Part shown: piece after piece, positions 18,128-56,112 of the stretch
Layout of the letters: every line of letters starts with the position of its first letter
Numbering within the stretch: position 1 is the first letter of the stretch
Origin: Terebella lapidaria
Lineage: Eukaryota > Annelida > Polychaeta > Terebellida > Terebellidae
Reading direction: 5' to 3'
NCBI GenBank assembly: GCA_949152475.1
Contig: OX424563.1
Coordinates: forward strand, 37,396,120 to 37,460,119
Length of the DNA: 64,000 bases
Position numbers and translations under genes: made by a program
The notes under the pieces: model-generated
What the model saw: the letters and a program-made list of their open reading frames with translations, nothing else
Database searches by the model: none
What the model was told of the DNA's origin: nothing

Positions 18128-18172
18128 CACCGGACGAGACAGCTGAACACGGAGCCAGAGTGGAGCCAGCAG

Positions 18173-18463: not shown

Positions 18464-18479
18464 AGCGGGTCGCGGAAAA

Positions 18480-20978: not shown

Positions 20979-20999
20979 CGGAAATGGAAAACGGGAAAC

Positions 21000-22730: not shown

Positions 22731-22963
22731 GGGCCTTGAAATTGGGCTCTGACAATAGTTGGAGAGCAGACCTCGAGCTGTGCACATCGATGTAGCGGTC
22801 GACAGAGGCGGATGGCAGTTTGGCTGAGATGGTAGAAGCGGTGGCAGTTAGCAGCAACAACAACACGAAAAAAAAAAAAAATTATTTATCCAAGAAGACG
22901 GAAATCTCCGGAAGCAGACCTTGTGGAAGGTCACCACCAGGGGGAGTTGCAGTTTGCTGAGCA

Positions 22964-23015
22964 GCCAATCATCAAGCAGATAAGCTGGTCACGTGACTTC
23001 CAGAGACTATAAAAA
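22964..23015 (+). promoter_or_regulatory. Internal promoter 2 of element B
   Basis: A second module 280 bp downstream: GCCAATCA (22964-22971), E-box TCACGTGA (22989-22996), TATAAAAA (23008-23015). E-box to TATA spacing (11 bp) is almost the same as in promoter 1 (10 bp). The zinc-finger ATG is at 23094, 79 bp after the TATA box, giving a 5' leader of about 50 nt. The A-rich tract at 22869-22881 separates the two modules. Confidence 0.65.
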
Positions 23016-23093
23016 GGGGCAGATAGCTGTTACCGGACGCAGAAGGCAGTTTGCTGTAGCTGAGTCAACATAGACCCGAAGCAGAGAATCAGA

Positions 23094-24441
23094 ATGCCGA
23101 AAGTAAAGACAACACCCCGCAAGCCCCGCCTTCACCGGTGTGGAGACTGCAACCTGGAATTCAAGAACAAACACACATTGCTCCGGCATGTCACGGAGCA
23201 GCACATGGGTGAAGTCACCGTCTTCGCCTGTCCGCAGTGTGACCATTGGAGCAGACGGAAAGAGGGGACACAGAAACATCTGCAGGCCTGACACGGAATG
23301 GACGCGAACCCGATTCGACTAAGGGTTGGCAGAGAGCAGTTTGAGGAAAAAGCCCTCCGGTCCAGGATGACTCCACGGAAAAGCAAGAAAGCAGTAGCAC
23401 GGTTTGATCAGCTGTCGGATACGGAGTCGGAGTCGGGAGGTTCGGTTTCGTCCCGGACCCGGTACCGTTCTGGTACCCAGTCAGTGACCACACTAGCAGC
23501 CGACGTTTCGTCCACGGAGGCGGAGAGCAGTTCGGAAGAAGAATCAGAGCTGAACATTATGGCAAGTGAAGACGAGTTGCAGGACCCGGAGGACCCGGAG
23601 CCGGTTAAGCCACCTGTTACCCGAAGTTCTTCCCGGAACCCCAGACCCATCCCGGGGTACCGGAGCAGATCGAGACCGCGGAAAGAAGCGGAGTCGCAGC
23701 CGTTCTCCGGAGAAATCCAGCCGTCATCAACGCCGGGAATATAGGAAGGAGAGCCCGGAGCATACCAAGGACCGGGGCAGAGAACGTGGCCGAGAGGAGA
23801 AGCGCCACTCCCCATCCAAGTTTTCAGGAGGCAGCATCAAGGGAAAAGGCAAGGGGGTGTACGACTACAAGTTCCGGTTGTTGGAGGAAGGTTCCAGCGG
23901 AGCAACAGCAGAAGTTGGAGTGGCGGATATTGCGGAAATGCAGGGCAGAGACGAGGAAGGCAGTTTCCGGAGTCCAGCTCCGAGAACGACTAGTAGTGGC
24001 AGAGCGGTGAGCAGCATGATCGTCCGGCCCGGAGGCGGAGCAGAAAGCAGATCCAGCGGCCAAGCAGATAGCAGAGCAGATAGCAGAACAGATAGCCGAG
24101 CAGACAGCAGACCTGATGGCAGATCAGGAGGCAGAGCGGAGACCAAAGCGGAAGGCGGAACCAGGAGCAGAGCTGACAGTGAGACGGAGACCCGAGGATC
24201 CACGGAGAGAACTTTACCGGCAACCATTCAAGCAGTAGCCGGAAGCAGAACCAGTACAGCGGCTAAGGATGACGGAATGGAGTCTTCCGCGTCTGACCGA
24301 AGCCATGCGGACGTGCAGAGAGCCCGGAGGAGTATCCTGATGGATCAAGCCAGAGCTACACCCGGAATCCAAGTCGCCGCAAGTCGTCGTAAGTCAAGTC
24401 GGCGCAAGGAGAAGAAAGAAGAACCGTTTCCCAGATTCTAG
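23094..24441 (+). pseudogene. ORF3 of element B: C2H2 zinc-finger, acidic and Arg/Ser-rich protein
   Basis: The N-terminal part (from MPKVKTTPRKPRLHR) has two finger-like units: CGDC-x12-H-x4-H and CPQC-x12-H. An acidic Ser/Glu region follows (SDTESESGGS, EAESSSEEESEL), then Arg/Ser-rich stretches (YRSRSRPRKE, RSRSRSPEKSSR) and a long Ala/Arg/Ser/Asp tail with DSRADSR-like repeats, ending near KKEEPFPRF. The region is spread over more than one frame, and I treat it as a fossil. Position after integrase and behind promoter modules sets it apart from gag and pol. I infer a DNA- or RNA-binding regulator. It is not an envelope: no signal peptide or membrane segment is seen. Elements C and E have counterparts. 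Confidence 0.75.
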
Positions 24442-24531
24442 TATAATTAAGAGTTAAAAGTGGGGAACGGAACAAGCAAGATATCCGGGTACAGTGACCA
24501 TAAACTAGTTAAGAGATACCAGTACCCGGAT
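24424..24531 (+). other. Twin hairpins upstream of the polypurine tract, element B
   Basis: Hairpin 1: CCGTTTCCC (24424-24432) pairs with GGGGAACGG (24462-24470), nine pairs including one G-U, loop 29 nt. Hairpin 2: ATCCGGGTAC (24483-24492) pairs perfectly with GTACCCGGAT (24522-24531), loop 29 nt. Both loops contain TTAAGAG at about the same place; the second ends AGAGATACCA. Element E has the same pair with other stems. Probably an RNA structure of the 3' untranslated region. Confidence 0.75.
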
Positions 24532-24630
24532 CACGGAAAAAGTTGTGTTTGATTATACGGACAATTTAACGGTTGAAAATTTGTATATATGTGATATGTG
24601 ATATTGATCTGTTCGGGACGAACAGAGTCT

Positions 24631-24643
24631 AAGGAAGGGGGAG
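24631..24643 (+). promoter_or_regulatory. Polypurine tract of element B
   Basis: AAGGAAGGGGGAG abuts the TG of the 3' LTR, the expected primer for plus-strand synthesis. Element E has nearly the same tract at its LTR starts. Confidence 0.88.
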
Positions 24644-26011
24644 TGTAACGGTTTTGGGGTGTTCCCAAAAGTTTCCCCTAGGTAATTCTAGCAGTATTTT
24701 GTGATATTACGGTTAAATAACAGTTTATTGAAATGTATATGTGTTTAAAGGTTCATTCGGTTCCGTATTGGTGATATTTAGAAGGTTTTCCGTCTCGGAA
24801 CTTAGTATATTTTTGATGTTGGTAAAGCCGGAGACGGAGACGGAGACGGAACCGGAGACGGAACCGGACAATGGAGTACAAAAACGTAATGACGTTATTT
24901 CCGGAAGGCCACGTGATCAGCCTCATTTTCGGTTTAAAAGGTGACGTAGCAGCCGCTGATTGGTTCTAGAGTGTTTTTGGAAATCCGGAAAAATTTAGTG
25001 TTTTCGCGGGTTATGACGTCACAATGGTCGGTCACGTGACCCTGGGTCTGAGGTCTATAAAAGCCCCCGCTTCACAGCGGACGGCGGAGTTGGTGTCCTG
25101 ACGTCGACCTGTGCAGACCCCTTCTCCCATAGCAGAGTACTCCCTTGCTCCGGCTTAGGTCATACCAGATGATAGCAGTTATGTCTTCCGACTGTACACT
25201 TAGAAAATAAACATGAAAACTTCAACCGAGTTGTTTTTCCTGGAACTGGAATTTATGATAAAGTTAGTTCACCGGAAAAGAAAGTAATACGGAGAAAAGG
25301 GAGATAAGTCCACAGTCGGTTAAGACAAAGTTGTAACGACGTCTTAGGGTGATCAAAGAACCCAGATCACCAAGGAAGGAGACGGATACGGAGGTGGAAT
25401 TCAACGGAGCAACTACGGAGGTGGTACCGGACGAAACAGTTGCAGAGACGGGAACGACGAAGCAGTTGCAGAGGCGGTACCGGACGACGGAGTAGCAGAG
25501 GCAGTACCTGACGGAGCGGTTGCGGTAACCGGAAGTGAGAACACTTCCGAGATTCTCCATTCCAGGTGCAGTCGCAGGTTGCGGTGAGGCGGAGCCAACC
25601 GGAGCAGTTTGCAGTGAGGCGGAACCTGGCAGAGCGGTTGCAGTATTCGGAAACGGCAACGTTCCCGGATTCTCTATTCCAGGTGCAGTCGCAGTTGCAG
25701 TAAGGCGGAAAACGACGGAGCTGTTGCAGTAAAGCGGTATCCCGACGGAGCAGTTGCAGTACCCGGAGACGGAAACGCCTCCGGATTCTTACTTTACAGG
25801 TGCAGTTGCAGATTGGCAGTCGGACAACGGTTAAGAGGTCCATTCCAGACCACGCTACCAACCTTCAGAGACTTCTAGCCGGAGTGTAACCGTACAGCGG
25901 TAGCAGTTTCCCGGAATTTTACCGTTACAGCTCCGATTAAATAACAACTCACCCACCTCCCAAGAAAACCGGTTTATCAAGACGTCACAGAAGGGTGGAG
26001 AACCCGTTACA
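24644..26011 (+). repeat. 3' LTR of element B
   Basis: Runs from TGTAACGG to GTTACA (1368 bp) and is followed by the TTAT target repeat. It carries the same hexamer array, promoter block and AATAAA signal as the 5' LTR. The last ~55 bp, with GACGTCACAGAAGGGTGG, match the end of the A LTR. Confidence 0.93.
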
Positions 26012-29480: not shown

Positions 29481-29827
29481 AAGTCGTGGCGCAAATGACT
29501 CAGACCTTAAGGGTCCGTTTTGGAAGAATGGGGAACGACCCCTGGACTTACGAAGTATACTGAACACGCTCCTGAATTTTGAATAAACCCTAATAAACAA
29601 GCTAAAATTTTGAACGAGGTGTTCCGGAAAGGGTAGTGACCTTGGAAGGTTATCCGCGGAAAGGACGGTGTGTCGAGTCTTTGGAATATCTTTATTGTTA
29701 AACTTTAAATTTAGAAATTTTGTAAAACGACACACCGAGTGATCAAAACGTGGTAGTACCTCTAAAAAGTGTGGCCAGCTGCCCGGCCGCGGGAAGCAGC
29801 TCCGGCAAGTCTGCGCGCACATAAATG

Positions 29828-30701
29828 TGTAACAAAACCATGCAACTGCCGCGCTGAAACGTTCGTTAGGAACGGTCACGTGATCTACAAAGTCCACTTG
29901 CGAAGACACCGTTCGCGGAAGAACCGTTCGCGGAAGCACGATTGCGGAAGCATCATCAGCGGAAGCATCGTTCGCGGAAGAACCGTTCGCGGAAGCACGA
30001 TTGCGGAAGCATCAGTCGCGGAAGCACCGTTCGCGGAAGAGGAGCCTTCGCGGAAGAACCGTTCGCGGACGCAGTCTTCACCACGTGGAGAAGAGTGCGG
30101 AAGATACGTTCGCGGACGAAGATGCGCGCGCAGCCACCCTGGCTATATAAGGGAGAGCGGACGGCCGCTCTGAGAGCACTGCAACAGCGACATCGACCGT
30201 GGGGAGATCATCACTGCCACAGCCAAGGGACTCGACGAACTCCGTGCGGACGACTCCTTCTTCAGGGCCTTAGAGTCAACCGGGATTAGACCGACTACCT
30301 GGAGAAACCATTCCACTAAACGGGACGGGAAACTTTAACGGGAAGGGACAGAGAGACGCCGCCGGCTAAGAACTCTTTTTAGTTGTGCCCTCGTGCACTA
30401 TTTATTTTTGAAATGTACAGTGCTCCATGTCTGAACTTCATATTTGTACGTCACGTGGGTGACCAGCCATACAATTGTAAGTTGATTTGATGTATATAAA
30501 TCTTCAATTTATTTACATCTGAGTTGCTTCTTGCCTAAGTGAAGCCGGTAAGCTACGGAGTGATGATACACCAGCGTTGGGGAACGCCAGATTAGTGACG
30601 GCTCTCGAATCACAACGAGCGGGAGTTACATAAAGTCTATACGATCAGAGAAACCAGGTTTTTTGAGCCACACCGAAAACAAGTCATTACCAAACGTCAC
30701 A
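29828..30701 (+). repeat. 5' LTR of element C
   Basis: Runs TGTAACAAAACC to GTCACA. U3 has an E-box (TCACGTGA, near 29877), then an array of the 15-bp unit AACCGTTCGCGGAAG (about 29908-30100), a second CACGTG near 30088, and a TATA box (TATATAA, 30144-30150). Predicted transcription start is near 30175. Confidence 0.93.
29908..30105 (+). repeat. 15-bp motif array in the LTR U3 of C (TTCGCGGAAG)
   Basis: About twelve units share the core TTCGCGGAAG or close variants (ATTGCGGAAG, CAGCGGAAG), mostly spaced by 15 bp, directly upstream of the TATA box. The core holds the dyad TTC-N3-GAA. The same array recurs at 38366-38495 and within gag. Confidence 0.92.
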
Positions 30702-30704
30702 ACT

Positions 30705-30722
30705 TGGTGCCGTGACCAGGAT
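30705..30722 (+). promoter_or_regulatory. Primer-binding site of element C, tRNA-His type
   Basis: TGGTGCCGTGACCAGGAT, three bases after the LTR, is complementary to the 3' end of an animal tRNA-His (ending ATCCTGGTCACGGCA plus CCA) over all 18 bases, as far as I recall that tRNA. Confidence 0.8.
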
Positions 30723-30764
30723 CCCCGAGGGTCTACTGCCAGGGAACGAACCTCAGCATCACTC

Positions 30765-33310
30765 ATGTCCGGCGAAAACGACGAAACTGCCCCAGGGAAG
30801 ACAGGAGGTGAAGAGGAAGACTCTTCGCGGACGGCCTCACTTGCGGACGAGGAAGACAGCGGTTCGCGGAAGCCGACCTTTGCGGAAGAGGGAGACGACC
30901 GTTCGCGGAAGACGACCGTTCGCGGAAGACGTTCGCGGACGACAACTGTTCGCGGAAGACGACCTTGGCGGAAGAGGCCGACGACCGTTCGCGGAAGACA
31001 ACGTTTGCGGAAGACGACCGTTCGCGGAAGAGCAGCTTCACAGCCAGGGGTAGACGGGACGTTTCGACGAGTGAGGAGCAACCAGGGAGGTCGAGACCTT
31101 CCATGGGCCAGTCGGCTAGTCAACAGAGACCCCGGAGCCAGACACCCGACAACCGTTTTCTTTTCAGACACGACTCTGGGTGGCAGCACGATCGAGACAG
31201 GGAGAGGTCAACCTACCTTGAGAGCGTTAGGAGGGGCCCCGAGTTCCGACGAGTGCTGGGACCGGAGTACGTCAATCTGGACGGGGAGGACGGCGAAATC
31301 TGGGCGAGGAGGGATCGGCTACAGCTACCGGAGCAGAGTCCAAGTGTGGCACCTCCAGAGAATGCAGCATTGAGACGGCTTTGGGACCAGTCCCAGCAGC
31401 AGTCTGGCGCAACAGAGCAGCAGTCTGGTGCAACAGGGCAGCGGTCTGGTGTGACGAGTCGACAAACGGGAGTGACTGGAGGACGGGTTACTTGGGCTCC
31501 GACCCAAGAGAGCAGCTCGAGAGGGAGAGGACTTTTCGCGGAAGAGAACATTCGCGGACGAGAGGCATTCTTCGGCGACAGGGACGCTTGCAGCCGGGGA
31601 TCCTTCGTGGATGAACGGGCTCGTGGGCGAGGGGGAGTCTTTGGTGACGAGGACGCTTGTGACCGGGGAGGGCCCTTCGCGGACGACCACGTTCGCGGGC
31701 GAGGACGACTCACAGAAGAGAGTGTTCGCGGAAGAGAGGAGTCTTCACCCAGACGGCGGCTCGACGAAAGGAGTGATCCAGGCGACCAATCTTCCTTTCC
31801 AGTTTTTCAGAGTAGACGGGGAGGACCATTCGCGGATGAGCCGGTTCGCGGAAGACTCGCGGAAGATGGCGTTCGCGGACGTGCATCTTTTGTGGAGGGA
31901 CGTCTCCGAGACATCTTGGCGGACGAGCCCGTTCGCGGAAGACTCGCGGAAGACGGCGTTCGCGGAAGAGGCCTGTTCGCGGAAGAACTTCTTCGGGAGC
32001 TGTTGGCGGAAGAGTCCGTTCGCGGAAGGTTCGCGGAAGACAGTGTTCGCGGAAGGTTCGCGGAAGACAGCGTTCGCGGAAGAGGGAGGTCTTCACCCAG
32101 TCGACAACCGAGACAGCCAGCCTCCTGGAGAAATCCAGCTTCTATTTTAGTCACCCAGGGAGGCCGGAGACAGCACCCTTTCTCATCATCGGGCGATGAG
32201 GGGCCTTCATCTGATGGAGGGACCGACAGCAGCCATGGTTACCCAGGACGGGGGAGGAGACCACCGAGGCGGGGACCGCCGCTGCACCGACGAAGCCCTA
32301 GGCCGAGACGGAGGCAGGAGGACTCGTCGTCCGAGGACAGCACAGCCTGGAATCAGAACGGCAGAAGGAACCGGAAGATGCTGACCCCTGACAAGTTCGA
32401 TGGGACTTCCATAGAGTGGCCGGTGTACCGGGCCCACTTTGACGTCATCGCAGAGGTCAACGGATGGAGCAAGCGGGAACAGGGCGTCTACTTAGCCGGG
32501 AGCTTGACAGGAGAGGCGCGACGAATGCTGACCAGCCTGAGTCCTGCAGACCGGAGGGACATCGACGTTCTGACCGACAAGCTGACCCTACGATTCGACC
32601 CTGACTGTCAGGAGGAGTCCTACAAGGCGACCTTGGGACAGAGAACCCGCAGGAAGGCAGAGACACCCCAGCAGTACGGCTATGAGTTGCAGCGACTGGC
32701 CGGCCGTGGTTATCCGGATCTGAACTCTGCAGCTCAGGAGGCTATCGCCTTAGACCACTTCTGGAAGGGCCATCCAGATGGGGACATGAAGGTGATGGCG
32801 CTCATGAGGAAGATGAAGACCATGGAGGAGGCCATAGCGTTCGTGACCCAGTACGAATGTGTCAAACCCAAGCCTGGGAAGCCGGTGATGTCCATAGAGT
32901 CGGAGGACTCCGAGCCAGCTCTAGGACGGGTCCTACAGCTATTAAAGAACCAGCAGGGAGGCGAGATTACCACCAGTGGGCAGCAGAGCAACCAGCCGAA
33001 CGTAGCGGGTCTACCCAGACTTCCCTACTTCAAGGGGCTCTTTGAGAGCCAAGACAGGAAGCTGGATCGACTAATCGAGCTGTGTGAGCAGGTGCTATCC
33101 ATCAAGCCGAGGGCCGCCACTGCTGAGAACAAGGGACCAAGCGCTAGGCCGGGACCAGATGACTGTTGGTACTGTGGGAAGCCGGGTCATCGGAAGTACC
33201 AGTGTCCAGATCGGCCGCCACCTCGGACCAAGGAGGAGCGCTTGAGTCGACTAATCGAGGAGATTGGTGAGCGGAACAGTTTGACAGACGAGGAGTCGGA
33301 AAACCAGTAG
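30765..33310 (+). CDS. gag: Gag region of element C
   Basis: The front half (to about 32100) is low complexity: Arg, Glu, Ala and Gly-rich peptides such as FAEDSVRGR that derive from the arrayed TTCGCGGAAG motif, plus Gln/Ser-rich stretches. The main 781-codon frame begins at 30965 and ends at 33310. From about 32380 a Ty3-type capsid is readable: LTPDKFDGTSIEWPVYRAHF, LAGSLTGEARRMLTSL, TLRFDPDCQEESYKATL. A CCHC knuckle, CWYCGKPGHRKYQC, lies near 33163-33204. Function: particle and RNA packaging. The pol frame differs from the gag frame, and its first ATG lies 22 nt past the gag end, so pol expression needs one of the recoding or reinitiation routes known for Ty3 elements. Confidence 0.87.
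30850..32090 (+). repeat. TTCGCGGAAG motif copies inside gag coding sequence
   Basis: Two clusters (about 30850-31040 and 31530-32085) hold more than twenty copies or near-copies of the LTR motif. In the main frame it is read either as Phe-Ala-Glu (TTC GCG GAA) or as Val-Arg-Gly (GTT CGC GGA), often alternating within one FAEDSVRGR unit, and the overlapping frame reads Arg-Ser-Arg-Lys. The DNA word is thus kept across frames. Confidence 0.9.
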
Positions 33311-33332: not shown

Positions 33333-36300
33333 ATGGGCCATTGGCAGGTGTGTGCACGGCTTCACAGGCGAGAAGCTCGACGAAGACGTGAAGAACACAT
33401 TGCCAGGGGGGAATTTTTAGTTTCACAGATTTTTAATAGGTTTTTCCGGTGTGCATCCAAAGTAACTGGATGGGCGCAGGAGGAGCTCGAGGATCGAATT
33501 CTCGACTATTTGGAGGGCAAGCCTGTCAACACAGACGGGAGTGCCAATGTACAGCAAACCGATGGAGCCGTGGAGCGTCTAATGCCCCGCGGAGACGTCG
33601 ACGAAATGCAGACCGATGGAGCCGTGGAGCGTTTGGGGACCCACGGAGACATCAACGAGGTTTCTGCTAGCAGCAAGGAGAACCAACAGGTTACAACCTT
33701 GAGGCTGGAGGCTGCGAAACAGCAGGGACCCCCCTATGCAACTGAACCACAAGCGGCCGTGAAAGAGGAGACGGAGGGCCGGTGGAGCGGAATGACCAAG
33801 GGGCCAGCGCAGCAGCTATTGCTGGTGGACGACTCATTACTTATCCGGAGCGGCGGTTCCGAGGGGAGTGATTCCCTTAAGACTGACAGAGAGGACCAGG
33901 GTGGTGCATCACTGTGGGTGGACGACTCAGTACTTATCCAGGGCGGCGTCCCTGAGGAGAGTGGCAGCTCTCTTAAGATTGACAGAAATGGCCAGGTGGT
34001 GTCGCTGTCAGCCGGTGCCCGAGGCACATTGGCGTGGTATGCGGCGTGCCACGTTATGGGGAAGGCGACTCGTATGTTGGTGGACACGGGTGCCTCTTCC
34101 ACCGTTCTGGACGAGTGTCTCTTCGACCAAATGGATGACGAACATAAAGCAATGATAAGGCAGACGAGAATAAGGTTACGGGCAGCAACCGGAGACTACT
34201 TACAGGTTCAAGGAGAGATGACAGTTCAACTTCTACTGGGCACACGACTCGTGTCGGCAGATGTACTGGTAGCCAAACTAGGGATCCCGGGAGTGTTGGG
34301 GCTTGATGTACTTCAGCAGATTGGGGGACAGCTGGATCTGCGTAAGGGCGAGTGGCAGGTGGGCGACACTACCGTAGTGATGAGCTCGGGCCACGAGGAC
34401 GCCGTCTACACACTGGTGACGGAGGAGACGGTCGTCTTGCCACCCTTTTCAGAGATGATGGTGGACCTCAAGCTGACAGGAAGTGAGGGAGGAGTTCCGA
34501 AGGCCGGCCTCGTGCAGTCCGCAAGAGAGCCGTTGGAGGACGACCCCCTCGTAGTGGGACGAGCCCTGGTACGACCCCGAGGACGCCTGGTACCGGTGGT
34601 ACTTCTGAACGCCGGCGCTGGAGCTTGCACTGTGCTGATGGGGACCATCCTAGCCGAGCTTCACGGAATAGAGGCCGTGATCGACCTAGGATTTCGTCCC
34701 GATGGAGGGAAAACAACCCAGAATGAACCTAAAAGGGAACAGTGGTACCGGGAGGAGAGCGGGAGGGAGCATGAGCCCCTTACACCAAACTCCACCAAGT
34801 GGCGGAACCGGACGCCTGAGCAGCCCGAAACCAGAGTGCACGCCATGCACGCAGAATCGTCGACGAAGACACCAGAGTGCCCGGAGCATTTAGAACCGCT
34901 CCTGGAGGGAATGCATCCGAACTTGACGGAAAAGGAGGTGGAGGTCGTCAGCGATCTCCTTCGACGCCACCAGCAGGTCTTTATGGGACCAGATGGGAGG
35001 TTGGGCCGGACGTCCCTGGCGAAACACGTCATCGACACGGGAGATCACCCCCCGATCAAGCAGCCTCTGAGGAGAGCCCCGTACTACCAACAAGAGCTGA
35101 TCGAGGACGAGGTCGACAAGATGTTGAAAGCTGACGTTGTGGAGCCAAGCGACAGTCCATGGTCGTCTCCCATCGTGCTAGTGAAAAAGAAGGATGGTGC
35201 ACTGAGATTTTGCGTCGACTACCGCCGTCTAAATGATGTCACCCGGAAGGATGCGTACCCCCTGCCTCGAGTCGACGAGAGTTTTGATACCTTGTCAGGA
35301 GGACGATATTTTTCGACGCTAGACTTGGCTAGTGGTTACTGGCAGGTCGAGATGGACGACAGGGACAAGGAGAAGACGGCGTTCACTACCCGTAGTGGAC
35401 TCTATCAATTTAAAGTGATGCCGTTTGGATTGGCGACGACCCCGGCTACTTTTGAACGTCTAATGGAGCTGGCACTGAGGGGACTCCAATGGAAGCGTTG
35501 TCTAATTTATTTGGACGATGTCGTCTGTCTTGGAAAGACTTTCCAAGAAGCCGTGGACAACCTCGAGGACGTGTTCCGGAGACTGCAGGCTGCCGGGCTG
35601 AAGCTGAAACCCGCCAAGTGTGAGCTGTTTCGACAACAGGTCAACTTCCTGGGCCATGTCGTGTCCGACCGAGGCATCCAGTGCGACCCTGCCAAGGTCG
35701 AAGCTGTAATAAAAATGGTTCCTCCGACCACCTTGACAGAACTAAGGAGCTTCCTTGGGTTCGTGGGGTACTACCGCAGATTCATCCCTGACTTTGCCAC
35801 CCGAGCGGGACCCCTCAACCACCTGTTAAAGAAGGAAGTCAACTACCATTGGAGCGAGGCTCATCAGCAGGCGTTCGAGGCGCTGCGTCAACCCCTGACC
35901 GAGCACCCCCTGCTGGTGTACCCTGACATGGACCAAGAATTTATTTTAGATACTGATGCTAGCGGCTACGGAGTGGGAGGCGTCTTATCCCAAGTGCAGG
36001 ACGGACGAGAGCGGGTGATCGCCTATGCTTCCAGAACCCTGAGGGACACCCAGCGGAATTACTGCACCACCAAGCGGGAGCTCCTGGCCGTCGTCAGTAT
36101 GATACACCATTTCAGACATTTCTTGTGGGGGAGAGCGTTCTTACTACGAACCGACCACGCCTCTCTCAAGTGGCTACTGAACTTTCGGGATGCGGAAGGA
36201 ATGATCGCTAGATGGGCAGCTCGCATCGCCAGCTACGCCTTCAGGTGTGAGGTCCGACCGGGAGTACAACACGGGAATGCAGACGGGATGTCCAGATGCC

Positions 36301-38351
36301 GACAGTGCCGGAGACCGGATTGTCCCGCCCCTCGCCACACCACAAGACCCGAAGGAGAAGAGGAGGCCTGTCCGACTCAGGAGGAGTGTCCCCTACCCCT
36401 GGAGGACCTCTCTGACGAGGATCTGCTTCCACCGATCAGCGGAGAAGGATGGAGCCCCGGAGGACCTCAAGTTAACATCTTGCGGGAGGTCCCTGTGGAG
36501 CCCTGGACGGAGGACTACTATTGCGGAGATGGAGTCGGGATATTCCAGATCTGGGAGGTGCGCTGCCAGGAGGACCCGAGGACGACTACCCAGCCGACCG
36601 AGGAATGCCTGCCTGACCGGAGCCCCCCACAGACGGAGGAAGGAGCCAGGAGCGTCTGCAGAACCCTGCATCAGCTCCGCCCCTCTGCCTGGGTTTGGTT
36701 TCTCCTGATGATGCTCCTCGCACTGCATGGTTTGGGACCGGAGGTTGTGGCCGGAGCAGCGATCGGCGCGACAGCCGACGTGTGGATGCGCTGCCGAGAG
36801 GAGCCCTTCCTGGACCCATGCCCCAACCCTGTGATCCGAGATCCAGACAAACAAATGCTAGCTGTCACGCGGGCTATGGCTACGAGAGGACGCCGGAATC
36901 CGATGGAGGGAGCCCCGGAGGCCCAGGTCCTGAATGGTTATTCCCAGGAGGACCTAGTGACCCTTCAACGAGCCGACCCTGAAGTTGGAGGCATCCTCGG
37001 GTGGAAGAATATTTTCACTGAGAGACCTGCATGGCCCGAAGTCAGAACAAAAAGTCAGCAAATGAAGACTCTGTGGCAACAGTGGGACCAGCTGGAGCTA
37101 CGTGATGGGCTTCTGTACCGGCGGTACCAAGCGGCTTGCCAGAACGCACCAATCCATCAACTGGTCGTTCCACAGGTCCTGAGACGCGCCGTCATGAAGG
37201 AGGTCCACACCGGCAAGCTGATGAGCCACCAGGGAGTCACCAAAACAGTCCACCGACTAAAAGCGAGAATGTACTGGCCGGGTATGACGAAGGACGTGGA
37301 GCGTTGGTGCCGGGAGTGCCTGAAGTGTAGTGGGAGAAAGCCGCGACCGGGGCCCAAGTACCACCCCATGGGAAATCTACCGGTAGGCGATCGGCTAGAA
37401 AGGGTGGCCATGGACATTTTGGAGCCTGGAACGATCACCAATTCTGGGAACCGGTATATACTGGTCGTGGGTGATTATTTCACCAAGTGGACTGAGGCCT
37501 ACGCTCTACCCAACCATGAGGCTCAGACGGTGGCGGACGTTTTTGTGACTGAGTTCGTGTGCCGCCTGGGAATGCCAGCCAAGATACACACCGACCAGGG
37601 ACGAGAGTTCGAGAGTAAGCTTTTCCTTGAGATGATCAAGATCCTAGGAGGGGAGAAGACTCGGACGACCCCTTATCACGCCAAATCAGACGGGATGGTC
37701 GAGCGATTCAACCGGACCCTGCTGAACCTTCTGGCCGTGGTCGTGGACGAGAACCATGACGACTGGGACGACCATCTGCCCTACGTGATGGCGACTTATA
37801 GAACGTCAGTACACGAAAGCACCGGGTGTACACCATTTCGAATGATGATGGGACGGGAGGCAACCACCCCATTGGACCTGAGGTACCGGACGAAACCGGA
37901 CGATTTGGGAGGACCAGTCCCCGAGTGTGCGTCCGAATACGTCGAATGGGTGAAGGAAGCCACCATACAAGCTCACGAGACTGCCCGAGAGTGCCTGAAG
38001 ACGGCTACGGTGCGACAAAAGCGCCATCATGACGTAAAATCAGCCGCTCGACATTTTCCGGTGGGCACCTGGGTGATGTATTGGTACCCTCCAAAGGCTA
38101 GACCAAAACTAGGACTAGGGTGGACGGGACCTTATCTCGTTGTGAAGTCTCATCTCGGATGGATGGTGTCCATACAAGATCGACCCGGTGGCAAGATTAA
38201 AGATGTCCACATTGACAATATAAAAAGGTGCTGGTTTACCCCTGAAACCGACGCCTGGATACCCAATCCGGACGATGTGACCCCAGTCCGGACCCCCAGT
38301 GATGACGAGGGACGAGTGGAAAACAGCGGGAATGCAGTCCAAACGATGTAA
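33333..38351 (+). CDS. pol: Pol polyprotein of element C (protease, RT, RNase H, integrase)
   Basis: One open frame of 1672 codons. Protease: LVDTGASSTVLD (about residues 248-260) and LGVPGVLGLDVL-like flap. Reverse transcriptase: PIVLVKKKDGALRFCVDYRR, FSTLDLASGYWQVEM, YQFKVMPFG, catalytic CLIYLDDVV (near 35500). RNase H: FILDTDASGYGVGGVLSQ, TKRELLAVVSM, LLRTDHASLKWLLNF. A spacer with a hydrophobic segment (about 36676-36780) comes next. Integrase: HHCC zinc domain (HTGKLMSHQG...CRECLKC), DDE core (AMDILEP, HTDQGREFESK, VERFNRTL), and a C-terminal GPY/F module (GWTGPYLVVKS). Length is well above usual Ty3 pol (~1200) because of the N-terminal extension and the spacer. It looks whole. Confidence 0.95.
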   Translation: MGHWQVCARLHRREARRRREEHIARGEFLVSQIFNRFFRCASKVTGWAQEELEDRILDYLEGKPVNTDGSANVQQTDGAVERLMPRGDVDEMQTDGAVERLGTHGDINEVSASSKENQQVTTLRLEAAKQQGPPYATEPQAAVKEETEGRWSGMTKGPAQQLLLVDDSLLIRSGGSEGSDSLKTDREDQGGASLWVDDSVLIQGGVPEESGSSLKIDRNGQVVSLSAGARGTLAWYAACHVMGKATRMLVDTGASSTVLDECLFDQMDDEHKAMIRQTRIRLRAATGDYLQVQGEMTVQLLLGTRLVSADVLVAKLGIPGVLGLDVLQQIGGQLDLRKGEWQVGDTTVVMSSGHEDAVYTLVTEETVVLPPFSEMMVDLKLTGSEGGVPKAGLVQSAREPLEDDPLVVGRALVRPRGRLVPVVLLNAGAGACTVLMGTILAELHGIEAVIDLGFRPDGGKTTQNEPKREQWYREESGREHEPLTPNSTKWRNRTPEQPETRVHAMHAESSTKTPECPEHLEPLLEGMHPNLTEKEVEVVSDLLRRHQQVFMGPDGRLGRTSLAKHVIDTGDHPPIKQPLRRAPYYQQELIEDEVDKMLKADVVEPSDSPWSSPIVLVKKKDGALRFCVDYRRLNDVTRKDAYPLPRVDESFDTLSGGRYFSTLDLASGYWQVEMDDRDKEKTAFTTRSGLYQFKVMPFGLATTPATFERLMELALRGLQWKRCLIYLDDVVCLGKTFQEAVDNLEDVFRRLQAAGLKLKPAKCELFRQQVNFLGHVVSDRGIQCDPAKVEAVIKMVPPTTLTELRSFLGFVGYYRRFIPDFATRAGPLNHLLKKEVNYHWSEAHQQAFEALRQPLTEHPLLVYPDMDQEFILDTDASGYGVGGVLSQVQDGRERVIAYASRTLRDTQRNYCTTKRELLAVVSMIHHFRHFLWGRAFLLRTDHASLKWLLNFRDAEGMIARWAARIASYAFRCEVRPGVQHGNADGMSRCRQCRRPDCPAPRHTTRPEGEEEACPTQEECPLPLEDLSDEDLLPPISGEGWSPGGPQVNILREVPVEPWTEDYYCGDGVGIFQIWEVRCQEDPRTTTQPTEECLPDRSPPQTEEGARSVCRTLHQLRPSAWVWFLLMMLLALHGLGPEVVAGAAIGATADVWMRCREEPFLDPCPNPVIRDPDKQMLAVTRAMATRGRRNPMEGAPEAQVLNGYSQEDLVTLQRADPEVGGILGWKNIFTERPAWPEVRTKSQQMKTLWQQWDQLELRDGLLYRRYQAACQNAPIHQLVVPQVLRRAVMKEVHTGKLMSHQGVTKTVHRLKARMYWPGMTKDVERWCRECLKCSGRKPRPGPKYHPMGNLPVGDRLERVAMDILEPGTITNSGNRYILVVGDYFTKWTEAYALPNHEAQTVADVFVTEFVCRLGMPAKIHTDQGREFESKLFLEMIKILGGEKTRTTPYHAKSDGMVERFNRTLLNLLAVVVDENHDDWDDHLPYVMATYRTSVHESTGCTPFRMMMGREATTPLDLRYRTKPDDLGGPVPECASEYVEWVKEATIQAHETARECLKTATVRQKRHHDVKSAARHFPVGTWVMYWYPPKARPKLGLGWTGPYLVVKSHLGWMVSIQDRPGGKIKDVHIDNIKRCWFTPETDAWIPNPDDVTPVRTPSDDEGRVENSGNAVQTM

Positions 38352-38365
38352 ACGATGACGGGAGC

Positions 38366-38495
38366 GTTCGCGGAAGAACCGTTCGCGGAAGCAGCGTTCG
38401 CGGAAGCAGCGTTCGCGGAAGTACCGTTCGCGGAAGTACCGTTCGCGGAAGCACGTACGCGGAAGCAGCGTTCGCGGAAGAACCGTTCGCGGAAG
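38366..38495 (+). repeat. 15-bp motif array in front of ORF3 of element C
   Basis: Nine head-to-tail units of 15 bp (core GTTCGCGGAAG) begin 15 bp after the pol stop and end about 70 bp before the internal TATA box. They match the LTR array in sequence, orientation and period. The array also leaves an open frame (FAEAA repeats) that I regard as incidental. Confidence 0.93.
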
Positions 38496-38563
38496 CAAGC
38501 GAAAAACGTTATTTCGTTCCACGACAATGCTTTTTCCCCCAGATCCCTGGTCCGCGCCTTTTC

Positions 38564-38570
38564 TATATAA
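38564..38570 (+). promoter_or_regulatory. Internal TATA box for ORF3 of element C
   Basis: TATATAA lies 42 bp before the ORF3 ATG (38606), in a GC-rich context (CGCGCCTTTTC upstream, GCAGGCCGGCC downstream), the same TATATAA as in the LTR. With the motif array immediately upstream it copies the LTR promoter plan. I infer an internal promoter with a 5' leader of roughly 10-15 nt. Confidence 0.7.
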
Positions 38571-38605
38571 GCAGGCCGGCCTACGATTCCGTCATCACTT
38601 CAACC

Positions 38606-39337
38606 ATGAACACACCAACTCTGCAGATCATTGAGATACCCGCATTTGCAGACGAAGATTTCGGGGACGTTCCAGATTTCGACTTGGCTGACTTTCTGCC
38701 CCTTGAAGTCGACAAGATGAGCGACCCACCTACCAAGATAGACAAGCCTGACCGAAAGCGGGAGCGCTCGAGGAGCCGGGAGCGTCGTGAGGAGCCCCGA
38801 GGAGGTCGACGGTCCCCTGCCCGGAAGTTGTCCACCGAGAGAGGGCGACGCTGGTGCAGCCCCTGCCGGATCCACGTGACGGCATCCAACTTTAGCCGAC
38901 ACGTGGCGACCAAACACACGCAGAAGGAGGGGCGGCACCTCTGCAAGATGTGCAGCCAGCGATTCGCCCGCCGAGCTGACAGAGACCGGCATGAGACGTC
39001 GCATGCCAGCGGCAACACCCTCAAGCCAGGACGGAGGAGGACGACGACCGACACGCCCGTGTCCGACCCCCGAGATGGTCCGACTACTGTGTCTGCCCCT
39101 GAGCTGAAGACTGTCAGCTTTGCGGCCAGCGGGACGACCAGCTCCACGCCGTCAAGCCCCCGGGAGGACGCCCCCAGGTCAGAGGACGCCCAGACCCCGA
39201 GGACGACCCCCCGAATAGCGAAGAGGAACCGGAGTCTCAGCAGGAGCGGAGAGAGGCAGAATCCCCGGAGGACCCCACCCCCGAGGACGACGGACCCCCC
39301 GTTCCCAGAGACTCGGCCCCTACCTACAAGCCCCTAG
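38606..39337 (+). CDS. ORF3 of element C: acidic, Arg/Ser-rich, two-finger C2H2 protein
   Basis: A 243-codon frame. Residues ~10-36 are acidic with bulky hydrophobics (DEDFGDVPDFDLADFLPLE), like acidic activation domains such as that of VP16. Residues ~45-75 are basic and Arg/Ser-rich (KRERSRSRERRE), plausibly a nuclear localisation signal. Residues ~88-135 hold two fingers: CSPC-x11-H-x4-H and CKMC-x12-H-x3-H. The remainder is Pro/Ser/Thr/Arg-rich. There is no signal peptide or membrane segment, so it is no envelope. It sits behind a motif array and TATA box. I infer a transcription activator of the element. The alternative is an RNA-binding or chromatin-tethering accessory protein. Confidence 0.82.
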   Translation: MNTPTLQIIEIPAFADEDFGDVPDFDLADFLPLEVDKMSDPPTKIDKPDRKRERSRSRERREEPRGGRRSPARKLSTERGRRWCSPCRIHVTASNFSRHVATKHTQKEGRHLCKMCSQRFARRADRDRHETSHASGNTLKPGRRRTTTDTPVSDPRDGPTTVSAPELKTVSFAASGTTSSTPSSPREDAPRSEDAQTPRTTPRIAKRNRSLSRSGERQNPRRTPPPRTTDPPFPETRPLPTSP

Positions 39338-39822: not shown

Positions 39823-40702
39823 TGTAACAAAACCATGCAACTGCCGCGCTGAAACGTTCGTTAGGAACGGTCACGTGATCTACAAAGTCCACTTGCGAAG
39901 ACACCGTTCGCAGAAGAACCGTTCGCGGAAGCACGATTGCGGAAGCATCATCAGCGGAAGCATCGTTCGCGGAAGAACCGTTCGCGGAAGCACGATTGCG
40001 GAAGCATCAGTCGCGGAAGCACCGTTCGCGGAAGAGGAGCCTTCGCGGAAGAACCGTTCGCGGACGCAGTCTTCACCACGTGGAGAAGAGTGCGGAAGAT
40101 ACGTTCGCGGACGAAGATGCGCGCGCAGCCACCCTGGCTATATAAGGGAGAGCGGACGGCCGCTCTGAGAGCACTGCAACAGCGACATCGACCGTGGGGA
40201 GATCGTCACCGCCACAGCCAAGGGACTCGATGAACTCCGTGCGGACGACTCCTTCTCCAGGGCCTTAGAGTCAACCGGGAATAGACCGACTACCTGGAGA
40301 AACCATTCGACTAAACGGGACGGGAAACTTCAACGGGAAGGGACAGAGAGACGCCGCCGGCTAAGAACTCTTTTTAGTTGTGCCCTCGTGCACTATTTAT
40401 TTTTGAAATGTGATCATAGAGTGCTCCATGTCTGAACTTCATATTTGTACGTCACGTGGGTGACCAGCCATACAATTGTAAGTTGATTTGATGTATATAA
40501 ATCTTCAATTTATTTACATCTGAGTTGCTTCTTGCCTAAGTGAAGCCGGTAAGCTACGGAGTGATGATACACCAGCGTTGGGGAACGCCAGATTAGTGAC
40601 GGCTCTCGAATCACAACGAGCGGGAGTTACATAAAGTCTATACGATCAGAGAAACCAGGTTTTTTGGGCCACACCGAAAACAAGTCATTACCAAACGTCA
40701 CA
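39823..40702 (+). repeat. 3' LTR of element C
   Basis: 880 bp, TGTAACAAAACC to GTCACA, with the same motif array, E-boxes and TATATAA as the 5' LTR, followed by the AATG target repeat. Confidence 0.94.
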
Positions 40703-42306
40703 AATGTACCCGCGGACAGCTGTCTCGGACAGCTATCAAAGCCAATGCGGCTGACAGCAAATGTTGACAGCAATTCTACGCGTGCAGCAGTGCATGCGGC
40801 GTCGCTGTAAACTTCTGTCCCCGGTCATAATGACACACTGCCCGGACCAAAATACAAACACTATAAAACTCATGCGGGGGCAATCATTTCCCTCCGGTGA
40901 CTCCAAATCAAACCGTGGATACGGGTAGAAAATGAGAATTTAACAGTAATTAAAATCAGTCATTAGCTATAGCTGCCGCACTGGCGGTAAATGACGGGAA
41001 ATTAATCACCTCAGCAAGGTAGAAATCGGGCTTGAAATTGACAGTAACCACTAACTTGTGGTTGTTACGATATGTCAGACGAAAACAACAATAAATTGCC
41101 GTTCTCCAGTCTTTTCGGATATCACATCACACCGTCACTGTCAAAATTAACGCAATTCCTTCACCCCTCTTTCGAGAGCGGAAATCACCTGATTTCCAAC
41201 CCTCTATTGCACCAGAAAGGAAATTTCACAAACTTGTCTCAATTGTGTCATTAATCGAGCAAGAACAGAATTCTCCAGAGACATGCCGCATACTAGTGGT
41301 TTTAATAATCCACTCAGTAAATAATAACATGAGATGGATAAATAAACATACACACTACCCATAGCCGCTGGTATGCTTACAAGGCGATCGGGTATGCCCA
41401 TGGTAGCCCTAAAGACAATTGAGCGCCCTGTGGGCGTTGATCAGACGCCCACTAGCAACCCCAACGTACAATAAGGCCACAGAGTAATACCGGTCAAACC
41501 CAGAGCCCAAACAAACGACCACCGGAGCGCGGAACCAATAGATTAGACGTGGTGCCGGCAGAGCCATAACCGCATTGGTTAGGGAGCGAACCCTTCATGC
41601 CGGCGCCCAATCTAGAGGATCCCAAACATGATGAAATCAATAGCCGGCGCTCGTCCGGAACTGCCTGCGAACAGAGTCCAGATCCAAACAAGCACCTTAA
41701 GATAGCATATTGACCTTATCCGATGGTAGTGATAGGGAGTAGAAACCACAAAGTATACTTCGCATGTAGAATACGACCCCCTTCCTAGAAGGAGGCCGGG
41801 GTTCCGGTCATTCTGGCCGGACCATGTATTGTAAGGTACGACCTGGACGAAAATGAGCATCACCCACTGCTGCGGCTGGTCCGCACATGCGGACTTAACA
41901 GCCGGTCCATTAAAAATAATGGTTAAACGGTTTCCTGCCGCTAGAAACCTTAAACTACTATAAACTTAATTACAGTAGTGGCGCATGGGTGATGACACAC
42001 CAGAGTGTGTCACCCAAAAGCATCCGGAGCACTACTATATATCCATGTGATATCTGTTTATCTATTTTCTTGGCCCACACGTACTGGCTCATTTGTGAAA
42101 CCATGTTGGTTTGACTGTGAACATTGTCACTTGTACTTGGGTTCACATAGTTCGATTTTGGATTTTGTTGGGATTGTCCAGAATTTGGACGTATACTGGT
42201 GACTTGTTCTGTCAAGTGCCAGGGACACTGACTGGTCACTGTCGACTGTGACTGTTGACTATGATAAATAACTACGCATGCACAACTGTGCATAACGTTA
42301 AACAAT
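40703..42306. other. Unassigned DNA between element C and gag of F
   Basis: No gene recognised. 41400-41940 is a GC-richer block with a hairpin-like flavour but no known motif. At 41986-42009 TGACACAC and GTGTGTCA form a hairpin with a CAGA loop. It may contain leader sequence of F or a small retroposon ending in the ATTC run that follows. Confidence 0.45.
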
Positions 42307-50978: not shown

Positions 50979-51585
50979 TTTGGTGCTGCATGGACAGAAC
51001 GTGTGACCCGAGAGAACGGAGCTTTGGTGCTGCATGGACAGAACGTGTGGCCCCGAGAGAATGGAGCTTTGGTGCTGCATGGACAGAACGTGTGGCCCCG
51101 AGAGAATGTAGCTTTGCTGCTGCATGGACAGAACGTGCGGCCCAAGAGAGCAGAGCTTTGGTGCTGCATGGACAGAACGTGTGCCCCGAGAGAACGGAGC
51201 TTTACTGCTGCATGGAGAGAACATGTGGCCCCGAGAGAGCGGAGCTTTGGTGATGCATGGACAGAACGTGTGGCCCGAGAGAACGGAGCTTTGCTGCTGC
51301 ATGAACAGAACGTGTGCCCCGAGAGAATGGAGCTTTGGTGCTGCATGGACATAATGTGTGGCCCCGAGAGAACGGAGCTTTACTGCTGCATGGAGAAAAC
51401 GTGTGGCCCGAGAGAGCAGAGCTTTGCTGCTGCATGGACAGAACATGTGGCCCCGAGACAGCAGAGCTTTGCTGCTGCATGAACAGAACGTGTGGCCCGA
51501 GAGAGTGGAGTTTTGCTGCTGCATGAACAGAACGTGTGGCCCGAGAGAGTGGAGTTTTGCTGCTGCATGGACAGAACATATTTTC
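50979..51585 (+). repeat. 44-45-bp tandem array upstream of ORF3 of E
   Basis: About 14 units, phased by GCATGGACAGAACGTGTGG at steps of 44 or 45 bp, with GAGAGAACGGAGCTTTG in each. Steps of 44 and 45 mean that no single frame is kept, so the open frames on both strands are by-products. It ends directly at the zinc-finger sequence. Confidence 0.92.
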
Positions 51586-53762: not shown

Positions 53763-54838
53763 TGTAATGATTTTAAGCCGAAAATTGTGTTCGGCCAAGT
53801 TTTAATACCTGTTTGTTAATGTGGCTACACGATGTTTTACGGTCGTTAAATGAATTGAAAATTGATTCTAAGTGTGTATATATGATTGTCAAAGTTATCG
53901 TATTTTTTGGCTGCTTCGGTTGCTCTTCGGCTGACATCAGACCTTGATGGTCAAAATACACGATTACGTAAAAGTGCTCAGAAACGGATTTACAACAATG
54001 CAGTGAGCACTTTTTAACCTCAGTGAGAATCTTTTCACCTCTGTGAGAACTTTTACACCTCGGTGAGAACCTTTTCACCTCAGTCAAAACCTATTCACTT
54101 CTGTGAGAACCTTTTCATCTCAGTGTGAACCTGTTCACCTCAGTTTGAACCTGTTCACCTCAGTGAGAACCTTTTCACCTCAATGTGAACCAGTTCACCT
54201 CGGTGAAAACCTTTTCACCTCAGTGTGAACCTGTTCACCTCAGTTTGAACCTGTTCACCTCAGTGAGAACCTTTTCACCTCAGTGAAAACCTCTTCACCT
54301 CGGTGAAAACCGTTCCACCTCAGTGTGAACCTGTTCACCTCAGTGAGAACCTTTTCACCTCAGTGTGAACCTGTTCACTTCAGCGAGAACCTTTTCACCT
54401 CAGCCAGAACCTTTTCACCTCAGTCAGAACCTTTTCACCTCAGTGAGAACCTTCTCACCTCAGTGAGAATCTTTTCACTTCGGTTAAAACCTTGTGACCT
54501 CTGTTAGAACATTTTTTCACCTCAGTCAGAACCTTTTCACCTCAGTGAGAGCCTTTTCACCTCAGCGAGAACCGCTTCACCTCAGTGAAAACCTTTTAAC
54601 CCCAGTGAGAACCTTTTCACCTCTTTGAGAACCTTTTCACCTCAGTCAGAATCTTTTCAGCTCAGTCAGAACCTTTTCACCTCCGTGAAAACCTTTTCAC
54701 CTCGGTGAGAATCTTTTCACCTCATGGGAACCTTTTCACCTCGGTGCGAACCTTCTCACCTCCGTCAGAACCTTTTCACCTCAGTGTGAACCTGTTCACC
54801 TCAGTTTGAACATTTTCACCTCAGTATCAATCAGTTCA
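53763..54838 (+). repeat. LTR of element E, copy 1 with 20-bp array
   Basis: Starts TGTAATGATTTT after the purine tract AAGAAAGAGGGAG. About 230 bp of unique U3 are followed by some 40 copies of the 20-bp unit CAGTGAGAACCTTTTCACCT (about 53995-54835), which run straight into the second ORF3 stretch. Confidence 0.85.
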
Positions 54839-56090
54839 CTTGGCGTTTCCCGAAGACGGAGAAGGACAGCCACAGCTGATCCAGAGCTGGAGATGGATAC
54901 CGTTCCTGGAGCCAAGAAAGAGACTCCAAAAGATATCTCCAGTGATACCAAGAACGGGAGCGTCCTCATCCAGCACCAAGCAGAGTGTTCAGGCCAAAAC
55001 TACAGATATCTGAGCCCCTTCAACATCCAATGTGATTGTGACTACCTCTTCAGAGCCTGCTGCTGCCGCCCCTGCTGCTGCCGCCCCTGTCATTCTACTG
55101 TCCGAACTAAGATGATTCTTGACCGAACCGACGGCCGAAACCAAAGTATCCAGCCCGAAGGAGCTTCCGGCCGTGTCCACACAAGCAAAGTCCCCATTCT
55201 TGTTCCGGTTGCTGACCATCGACACAAGCCTGTTCGTGAACACCACACCAGGAAACGTCACTTTGGCTGACCAACCCGCGATCTCCCAGCTCGACCCCCC
55301 GAGGAGTGGCTCACTCCAAGAATTCTACAACGCCCCAGGTGACCAGAGTGTTGCCGGCTCCCCAGTCCGCTACCGTCATCCAGCCAGCAATAGTAACTCG
55401 AAGCAGCAGTTCGGAGAGTCAGGAATTCCGGAGCGCCGAAGCCCAATGCAGCCGAATACGCATCTTGGAGGACCAGGCAGCCATCATTTCAGATTACACC
55501 GTCCCGACAGAGGAACGTCCACCTCAGTTTCAAGCGATCACCCAAACGGGAGGGCAAGCGGCAACCCGAACAACTATTGCCGCCTTCGGAGGCCAGCATT
55601 TCCTTCCAGCTGATGACCTCGACAGTGCATTCTGGCTGTCATCCTATCTGTGTCGACCTTGGAGGAGGCTTCACCACTGCAATAGTGCCGCCAGCTCCTC
55701 AACAAGTATAGTACATCCCCGTCTGGTGGGTGCCTGATCAGTGGAGTCCGTCTGAATTTCGAGATTCAGGGGTCTATGCAGATACCTATGAAGTTCGTGA
55801 GACACCTTTGCACGTGCTGCCCTGCCGAAATCTCTACCGCATCGTCGACATGAATGTGAGCAACGACCGTCTGAAGAATGGCTGCTATCCTCCTCAGTGG
55901 TCCCTGCATCAACTGGATCTTCTCGGAGCCACTGCCCCGGCCCGAGGTACCAGTGGCGGTCGTACATGTGTGCCAGTCTCGTGTGACCAGAATGACGGTG
56001 AAGCCGGGAATACCCTTCCCACGTCCTCACCGAACTGACTCTTCGGATAGCGGTCCGGGAAGCAGTTGTTAAACATGTTCGTCGCAAGTA
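54839..56090 (+). pseudogene. ORF3 end of element E, copy 2
   Basis: Direct repeat of 52351 onwards. It shares PTAETKVSSPKELPAVSTQA, FLFRLLTIDTSLFV and the block DQWSPSEFRDSGVY...CRNLYRIVDMNVSNDRLKNG with copy 1. The two copies keep these peptides with few replacements, which suggests that the block was once protein-coding. Confidence 0.65.
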
Positions 56091-56112
56091 AAGTCGGCGC
56101 AAGACAAGTTCA

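Follow-up and report, generated by a model that had tools for sequence, protein, structure and literature searches.

LTR retrotransposons are generally thought to depend on host factors for their promoters, and VANDAL transposons, which encode the VANC proteins, are Mutator-like. The described systems closest to the locus reported here are the Tas (Bel1) protein of foamy viruses, VANC, and the CERV protein of Cer1 in C. elegans. Tas carries an acidic activation domain, forms dimers and binds the internal promoter first and U3 afterwards (PMC3798896). VANC is a transposon-encoded protein which binds dense tandem motifs of its own element, all pointing in one direction (PMC5735166). The term "zinc finger" is absent from PMC10398659 on VANC. 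CERV is an additional, nuclear regulatory protein encoded by a Ty3/gypsy element. It is made from a spliced mRNA, acts in RNA export and has no reported homology beyond nematodes, and matched repeat arrays are not described in the consulted part of the source (PMC10309623).

The 64,000-nt stretch of DNA analysed here (the window) belongs to a host genome of 438 contigs and 761.6 Mb. It contains element C, a Ty3/gypsy (Metaviridae) LTR retrotransposon, as is evident from the order of its pol domains, TG...CA LTRs, AATG target duplication, primer binding site and purine tract (Table 1). A target duplication of 4-6 bp is the rule for Ty3/gypsy elements (PMC12440569). The two LTRs are identical in 865 of 881 alignment columns, 6 of the columns being gaps. 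The primer binding site is similar to the 3′ end of a tRNA, putatively tRNA-His. The CCHC knuckle of the gag-like ORF scores just below the Pfam cut-off. In two other copies of the element, L024 and L025, gag starts further upstream, and the counterpart of this start in the window lies near 30766. In pol of element C, the RNase H match is separated from the integrase zinc-binding match by some 310 residues. These include a strongly hydrophobic stretch (36684-36830, WVWFLLMMLLALHGL), a feature that seems unusual here.

The last gene, ORF3, had been described in the first-pass annotation as standing in place of an envelope gene. This holds for the position of the gene but for nothing beyond it, and a Pfam scan of ORF1-3 detected no env domain. 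ORF3 resembles Tas as a self-encoded acidic protein with a DNA-binding domain, here a predicted one, and an internal TATA promoter 5′ of its gene, which in C is recognised by sequence only. The response elements of Tas are located in the internal promoter and in U3; their counterparts in C would be the arrays shared by its internal promoter and U3. Tas, however, comes from an env-bearing retrovirus, in which its promoter is located at the 3′ end of env, whereas C has ORF1-3 devoid of an env domain. Tas is not known to contain C2H2 fingers, and ORF3 has no detectable sequence relative in the protein database. A further difference is that the response elements of Tas share little sequence, with the exception of bovine foamy virus (PMC3798896). 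VANC is likewise self-encoded and targets tandem motifs, but VANDAL is a DNA transposon of Arabidopsis while C is an LTR retrotransposon, and the effect of VANC is loss of methylation. Finger 1 of ORF3 shares the S-N-F-x-R helix with Tramtrack (2drp); Tramtrack is a host factor, however, and its match to ORF3 is weak and local.

Table 1. Features of elements C and A in the window (positions count from its first nucleotide).
Feature	Position	Strand	Basis or remark
TCACGTGA + TATAAAA module 5′ of element A ORF3	22989..23014	+	
Element A ORF3, two C2H2 fingers with acidic and RS segments, broken	23094..24443	+	
Target-site duplication AATG	29824..29827 (left), 40703-40706 (right)	.	
5′ LTR (TG...CA)	29828..30701	+	aligned against 3′ LTR
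5′ U3 array of 15-bp repeat, core GCGGA	29910..30121	+	11 GCGGAA, 13 GCGGA in U3; limits transferred from 3′ LTR unit positions through the LTR-LTR alignment
LTR TATA box TATATAAG, 5′ LTR	30144..30151	+	
Candidate splice donor in LTR (CCG/GTAAGC, cut at slash)	30548..30549	+	matrix scan, tied 2nd of 529 GT sites
Primer binding site	30705..30722	+	
Leader/gag 5′ units	30822..32085	+	23 GCGGAA, 31 GCGGA within 30703-32100
Gag-like ORF1 with CCHC knuckle	30965..33310	+	ORF list and Pfam
pol: protease, RT, RNase H, integrase (Ty3/gypsy order)	33333..38351	+	Pfam
Internal promoter array, nine 15-bp units	38365..38498	+	9 GCGGAA, 10 GCGGA in 38352-38561
Candidate splice acceptor, first exon base	38543	+	matrix scan, 4th of 952 AG sites
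Internal TATA box TATATAAG	38564..38571	+	
ORF3, 243-aa reading	38606..39337	+	about 46 last residues out of frame in window copy
Acidic/hydrophobic segment, candidate activation domain	38618..38710	+	putative function
C2H2 finger 1 (CSPCRIHVTASNFSRHVATKH)	38855..38917	+	code residues Thr92, Asn95, Arg98, predicted to read GAn
C2H2 finger 2 (CKMCSQRFARRADRDRHETSH)	38942..39004	+	code residues Arg122, Asp125, Arg128, predicted to read GCG
ORF3 coiled-coil segment	39373..39696	+	other frame than 38606, stop-interrupted; residues 257-364 of intact copies
3′ LTR	39823..40702	+	aligned against 5′ LTR
3′ LTR U3 array, 13 units	39905..40116	+	10 GCGGAA, 12 GCGGA in U3
TATA box of 3′ LTR	40139..40146	+	

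When the protein database was searched, neither the 243-aa ORF (E <= 1) nor the 365-aa ENA protein P0001 (E <= 10, 7572 word-sharing candidates) retrieved anything but ORF3 itself; P0001 is the same protein as intact ORF3. Among viral contigs, P0001 gave 12 pattern stretches, none of which was confirmed, and a pol piece gave none. The gag protein has five relatives, retrieved as proteins without flanking DNA, and the only one of named source is from Holothuria leucospilota. By eye, the N-termini of the five contain no extended FAED/VRGR repeats; one, P0003, has a single FADES stretch. A search of the open-licence PMC literature found, among the titles and abstract starts listed, no Ty3/gypsy element with a zinc-finger or activator ORF. 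In the host genome, 20 random 10-kb stretches yielded no other two-finger frame under a strict pattern of low sensitivity, which within the window recovered the frame of C alone and missed the broken ORF3 of element A. A different Ty3/gypsy element (L030, 2600-8808), whose 494-bp end repeats are 100% identical, has no frame longer than 90 aa between integrase and 3′ repeat. An ORF3 is thus not universal among the Ty3/gypsy elements of this host. The search for C copies gave 1757 candidates, at least 150 of which were scored. Both C and A occur in many close copies, a sign of recent bursts. Elsewhere in the window, large minisatellites occupy 54001-58543 and 50979-51577; a 20-bp unit forms arrays of 41 and 99 copies, and a unit of 44 bp is repeated about 13 times.

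The ORF3 protein and its conservation

The acidic/hydrophobic segment, Arg/Ser-rich region and two C2H2 fingers reported in the first-pass annotation are all present in the ATG-started 243-aa ORF, but the 243-aa form itself proved to be a damaged copy. Twenty loci were fetched, and a start codon was found in all except L004, which has no recognisable start. ORF3 is 365 aa long in 12 of the 19 loci with a start, stops early in four (243, 243, 240 and 204 aa) and runs through 366 codons without a stop in three. An additional copy, L048, stops at 362. In the window copy, the linker and coiled coil continue in another frame to about 39702, and this continuation is itself interrupted by a stop. A functional truncated subfamily with the 243-aa form was considered and rejected, as the lesions differ among the early-stopping L001, L003, L005 and L006. 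Because the causes differ between copies, the early stops are likely to reflect independent decay.

The 365-aa protein comprises, in this order, an acidic N-terminus, an Arg/Ser-rich segment, two C2H2 fingers, an acidic linker and a long helix. The acidic/hydrophobic part corresponds to residues 5-35. PDFDLADFLPLE is found close to the N-terminus, and 30-residue windows there have a net charge of -9 to -10 and 7-8 F/W/Y/L/M residues. The C2H2 signatures are found at residues 84-104 (C-x2-C-x11-H-x4-H) and 113-133 (C-x2-C-x12-H-x3-H), so that finger 1 has 11 residues between Cys and His instead of 12. Neither finger passes the Pfam gathering cut-off: the best score is 17.4 against 27.5 bits (zf-Di19) for the 243-aa ORF and 16.5 against a cut-off of 40 for the 365-aa protein. 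The best sequence match of the finger pair among solved structures is to the Tramtrack fingers, at a weak E of 0.017. A single-sequence AlphaFold2 model of low overall confidence (mean pLDDT 64, pTM 0.30) places bba units at the fingers, with a mean pLDDT of 77-79 over residues 81-120 and 59 over 121-130. The same model predicts one helix over residues 257-364, with pLDDT 93-97 across 271-350. Foldseek matched the model to no PDB entry at E <= 0.001. On the strength of the Cys/His pattern, the selection described below, the weak Tramtrack match and the modelled bba units, ORF3 is likely to carry two C2H2 fingers, which are predicted to bind DNA.

ORF3 is under purifying selection. The comparison of 18 copies with L010 revealed 52 distinct single-base codon changes, 17 of them replacements (one a stop) and 35 silent; L004, with its unrecognisable start, was excluded. 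Without selection, 70.6% replacements would be expected; the observed 17 N : 35 S (N, replacement; S, silent) correspond to a ratio of about 0.2 (p 1.7e-8). The constraint is seen at residues 81-135 (1 N : 4 S, p 0.02) and in the coil (4 N : 19 S, p 4e-7). Constraint does not reach significance in the first 80 residues (3 N : 3 S) or in the linker (9 N : 8 S) when each is taken alone. Since the first set of copies had been ranked by protein score, the count was repeated with seven copies less dependent on that ranking, namely L001, L002, L003, L005 and L006, which were ranked partly through frames, and L048 and L049, which were found by a DNA pattern. Gapped codons were left out (125 in L002, 15 in L049). 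The repeat gave 19 N : 34 S (ratio 0.23, p 1.7e-7), and the most diverged copy, L003, alone gave 10 N : 25 S. Across residues 84-133, the count for the seven copies comprises four changes, all of them silent. A Thr-to-Ile substitution at residue 131 of L003 involves two bases and falls outside this single-base count. A lack of purifying selection had been named beforehand as a possible refutation of the activator reading, and both copy sets revealed such selection.

The 15-bp arrays and the predicted finger site

The arrays of element C are built from a 15-bp unit consisting of CGTTCGCGGAAG and three looser bases, with the core GCGGA(A/C)G. In the 3′ LTR, the 13 U3 units are mostly 14-15 bp apart and end shortly 5′ of the LTR TATA box. 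The nine-unit array lies 5′ of the internal TATA box, and looser units extend across the leader and the 5′ end of gag. No array was found in pol, ORF3 or R-U5 of the element. GCGGA is the commonest of the 512 strand-collapsed 5-mers in both U3s and is tied first in the 210-nt internal promoter and in the 1398-nt leader/gag 5′ part. It ranks 211 in pol, 127 in ORF3, 58 in R-U5 and 486 in the 43-64 kb part of the window. Outside the array regions of C, GCGGAA occurs once in the rest of gag, four times in pol and not at all in ORF3 or R-U5, and its minus-strand count is zero in all eight C regions scored. The rest of the window contains 33 plus-strand and 9 minus-strand copies in 53 kb. The word GCGGAA is therefore not unique to element C, but the dense 15-bp arrays are.

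Within the 3′ U3 units, G, C, G, G, A and the final G are conserved in 12-13 of 13, in a set chosen by at most four mismatches to a 12-mer, a criterion with the same bias at each of the 12 positions. At the sixth core position, A is found in 11 of 13 3′ U3 units and in 25 of 35 gag units. In the gag genes of L024 and L025 the word occurs in all three frames (17, 10 and 7 times) and is read as AE/AD, RG and SRK/SRT, respectively. This indicates that a nucleic-acid word is kept and not one peptide.

The arrays recur in other copies. Six to nine GCGGAA are located within 260 nt 5′ of ORF3 in 19 of the 20 loci. Of six 5′ pieces fetched, two contained LTR, primer binding site and gag start, one was partial, two covered only 74 nt and one gave nothing. 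The two scorable pieces have 16 and 12 GCGGAA in U3 and 24 each in leader/gag. Genome-wide, a pattern of three sites at 15-bp spacing had 5598 matches, compared with 0 for the reversed control. The 100 matches listed of these 5598 fall into 11 clusters when grouped by eye, seven of which have the U3-internal-U3 arrangement. The remaining clusters among the matches listed are two with U3-type arrays only, one incomplete and one single match.

According to the published finger code, Arg reads G, Asn reads A and Asp reads C, and Thr at position -7 is too short for a base contact (PMC12264921). Applied to ORF3, the code assigns the 5′ triplet GCG to finger 2 and GAn to finger 1, and GCGGAn to the pair. 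The predicted site equals the array core, and the base that the code leaves free is the base that varies between A and C in the arrays. We infer from this agreement that the finger pair would read GCGGAn on the arrays. The site was derived after the array had been seen, so the match is not blind. By calculation, about 3% of random 15-bp repeats would carry GCGGA on one strand or the other, and the word would rank first among 5-mers with a chance of about 1 in 512. In GCGGAnG, the last G does not vary among the U3 and gag units, and two fingers leave this G unexplained.

Element A, a second Ty3/gypsy family

Element A (about 15827-25957) belongs to another Ty3/gypsy family and is broken in the window. 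In copy L047, the frame of its own two-finger ORF3 stays open over at least 446 aa, and a genome search with the finger piece of A gave 728 candidates, 150 of them scored. A comparison of the window copy with L047, in which 53 and 65 columns are gaps, yields 38 N : 54 S (ratio about 0.29, p 4e-9); the ORF3 of A is likewise under selection. Besides the module directly 5′ of this gene, TCACGTGA + TATAAAA modules occur about 284 nt upstream (22706/22724) and in both A LTRs (16219/16243 and 25032/25056). Judged by sequence, an internal TATA box thus precedes a finger ORF in two families of this genome. Composition-adjusted BLASTP detects no homology between the A and C ORF3s (E 1.3), but they may be distantly related, as an unadjusted, unfiltered local alignment gives 1e-6 over 166 columns that include the fingers. 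The integrases of A and C are 38% identical. In A pol, a 42-bp tandem repeat between RNase H and integrase core (20417-20655) codes for a Lys/Ala/Val-rich peptide, which has a weak match to a histone H1-like family, below the family cut-off.

The finger code finds no support in element A. Its predicted site there, GNGGNA, is low in information and has 0 plus-strand matches in A U3, compared with a shuffle mean of 2.3. In A R-U5, GNGGNA shows a weak excess (9 against 5.2), which 16 of 200 shuffles reach. The prediction is also unstable, since at position -7 of A finger 1 the window copy has Asn but L047 has Ser. Counts of exact GCGGAA exceed those of shuffled sequence in leader/gag (5 against 0.6), pol (7 against 1.8) and ORF3 (4 against 0.6) of A, levels reached by 0 of 200 shuffles; in A R-U5 the count is 2 against 0.3, reached by 6 of 200. 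The fingers of A differ from those of C.

Transcription and possible function of ORF3

The TATA box that the first-pass annotation assigned to ORF3 itself is confirmed: TATATAAG starts at 38564, 42 nt 5′ of the ATG. Together with the array upstream of it, this box favours an internal promoter for ORF3. A transcript start near 38595, about 30 nt 3′ of the box, would leave a predicted 5′ UTR of about 11-12 nt. One may speculate that a 5′ UTR of about 12 nt lets ribosomes skip to Met38, giving a form without the acidic segment. It is unlikely, in our estimate, that ORF3, although DNA-binding, is instead expressed like env from a spliced LTR transcript, with the internal TATA box weak or unused. 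The acceptor and the LTR donor (Table 1) are strong in a simple matrix scan, no ATG was seen by eye from 38543 to 38606, and CERV of Cer1 sets a precedent, being produced from a spliced mRNA (PMC10309623). Splicing alone, however, gives no role to a TATATAAG located 3′ of an array with the same word as U3. Moreover, the TATA-to-ATG distance of 42 nt is constant in 19 of 20 loci, although these are close relatives, and the LTR leader exon 5′ of the donor contains ATGs when inspected by eye. Both routes may serve ORF3.

We propose that ORF3 is a self-encoded, sequence-specific regulator which binds the promoter arrays of its own element and raises transcription, Tas-like without being Tas. The probability that we give this reading on the sequence evidence is a little below 0.6. 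According to this proposal, the internal promoter would produce ORF3 first. The finger pair would recognise GCGGAn on the arrays, the C-terminal helix would make ORF3 a dimer or oligomer, which suits dense sites of the same direction, and the acidic N-terminus would recruit the transcription machinery. Binding to the internal array would create positive feedback, and subsequent binding to the U3 arrays would switch on the full-length RNA, the two-step logic of foamy-virus Tas. For ORF3, the binding, the transcript start and the activation are inferred. The activator reading of the first-pass annotation is strengthened by the arrays before both promoters and by the code-predicted site that equals the array core, but it receives no finger-site match from element A.

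Anti-silencing is the nearest rival to activation by ORF3, by analogy with VANC, whose targets are also dense one-direction tandem motifs. ORF3 would then bind the arrays and remove repressive chromatin rather than act as a classical activator. The VANC21 motifs are dense, unidirectional and arrayed in non-coding parts of their element, and their tandem repeat numbers change fast (PMC5735166, PMC10398659). The GCGGAA of C is similarly restricted to one strand and varies from 6 to 9 copies in the internal array of 19 of 20 loci, and the CG-rich arrays reach into gag, past a normal promoter. On the other hand, a TATA box stands 3′ of each promoter array, the acidic N-terminus resembles an activation domain, and many C units lie in gag whereas the VANC motifs occupy non-coding DNA. 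We consider this rival improbable on balance. Binding of the repeats in RNA for export or packaging of genomic RNA, as with CERV, is more improbable still. CERV is needed for the nuclear export of a Ty3/gypsy genomic RNA (PMC10309623), the repeats of C would be present in one direction in its genomic RNA (U3 at the 3′ end, leader/gag and internal array), and ORF3 is rich in Arg/Ser. Dense copies directly upstream of two TATA boxes are nevertheless placed as expected for DNA, the finger residues match the array core under the DNA code, and this reading leaves the acidic N-terminus unexplained.

The repeats might also be an enhancer for a host factor or a mere tandem expansion, with a coincidental finger match. 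Slippage generates tandem arrays, the match was found only after the array had been seen, and element A lacks a finger match and yet has GCGGAA above shuffles in some of its parts. Against coincidence, a single word leads the ranking, alone or in a tie, in U3, internal promoter and leader/gag but ranks low in pol, ORF3 and R-U5. The word is maintained in three coding frames, and the arrays vary at the very base that the code leaves free. We regard this explanation as rather unlikely.

A broader reading is more tentative than activation by ORF3 itself, and we put it at somewhat less than an even chance. A Ty3/gypsy element without envelope would have evolved a full autoregulatory switch independently of foamy viruses, comprising an activator with C2H2 fingers, an internal promoter, and arrays of the cognate two-finger site in that promoter, in the LTR and in all three frames at the start of gag. 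The unrelated-looking two-finger ORF3 with its own internal promoters in the second family would make this a recurrent strategy.

Foamy-virus Tas and VANC are element-encoded proteins with known targets in their own element, and if the proposal is true, ORF3 of element C would be a further independent case. The switch is directly testable because its target word is predicted to the base. The gag repeats would be a case in which the coding sequence, in every frame, has been shaped around a regulatory site, and self-activation could help to explain the hundreds of close copies in one family.
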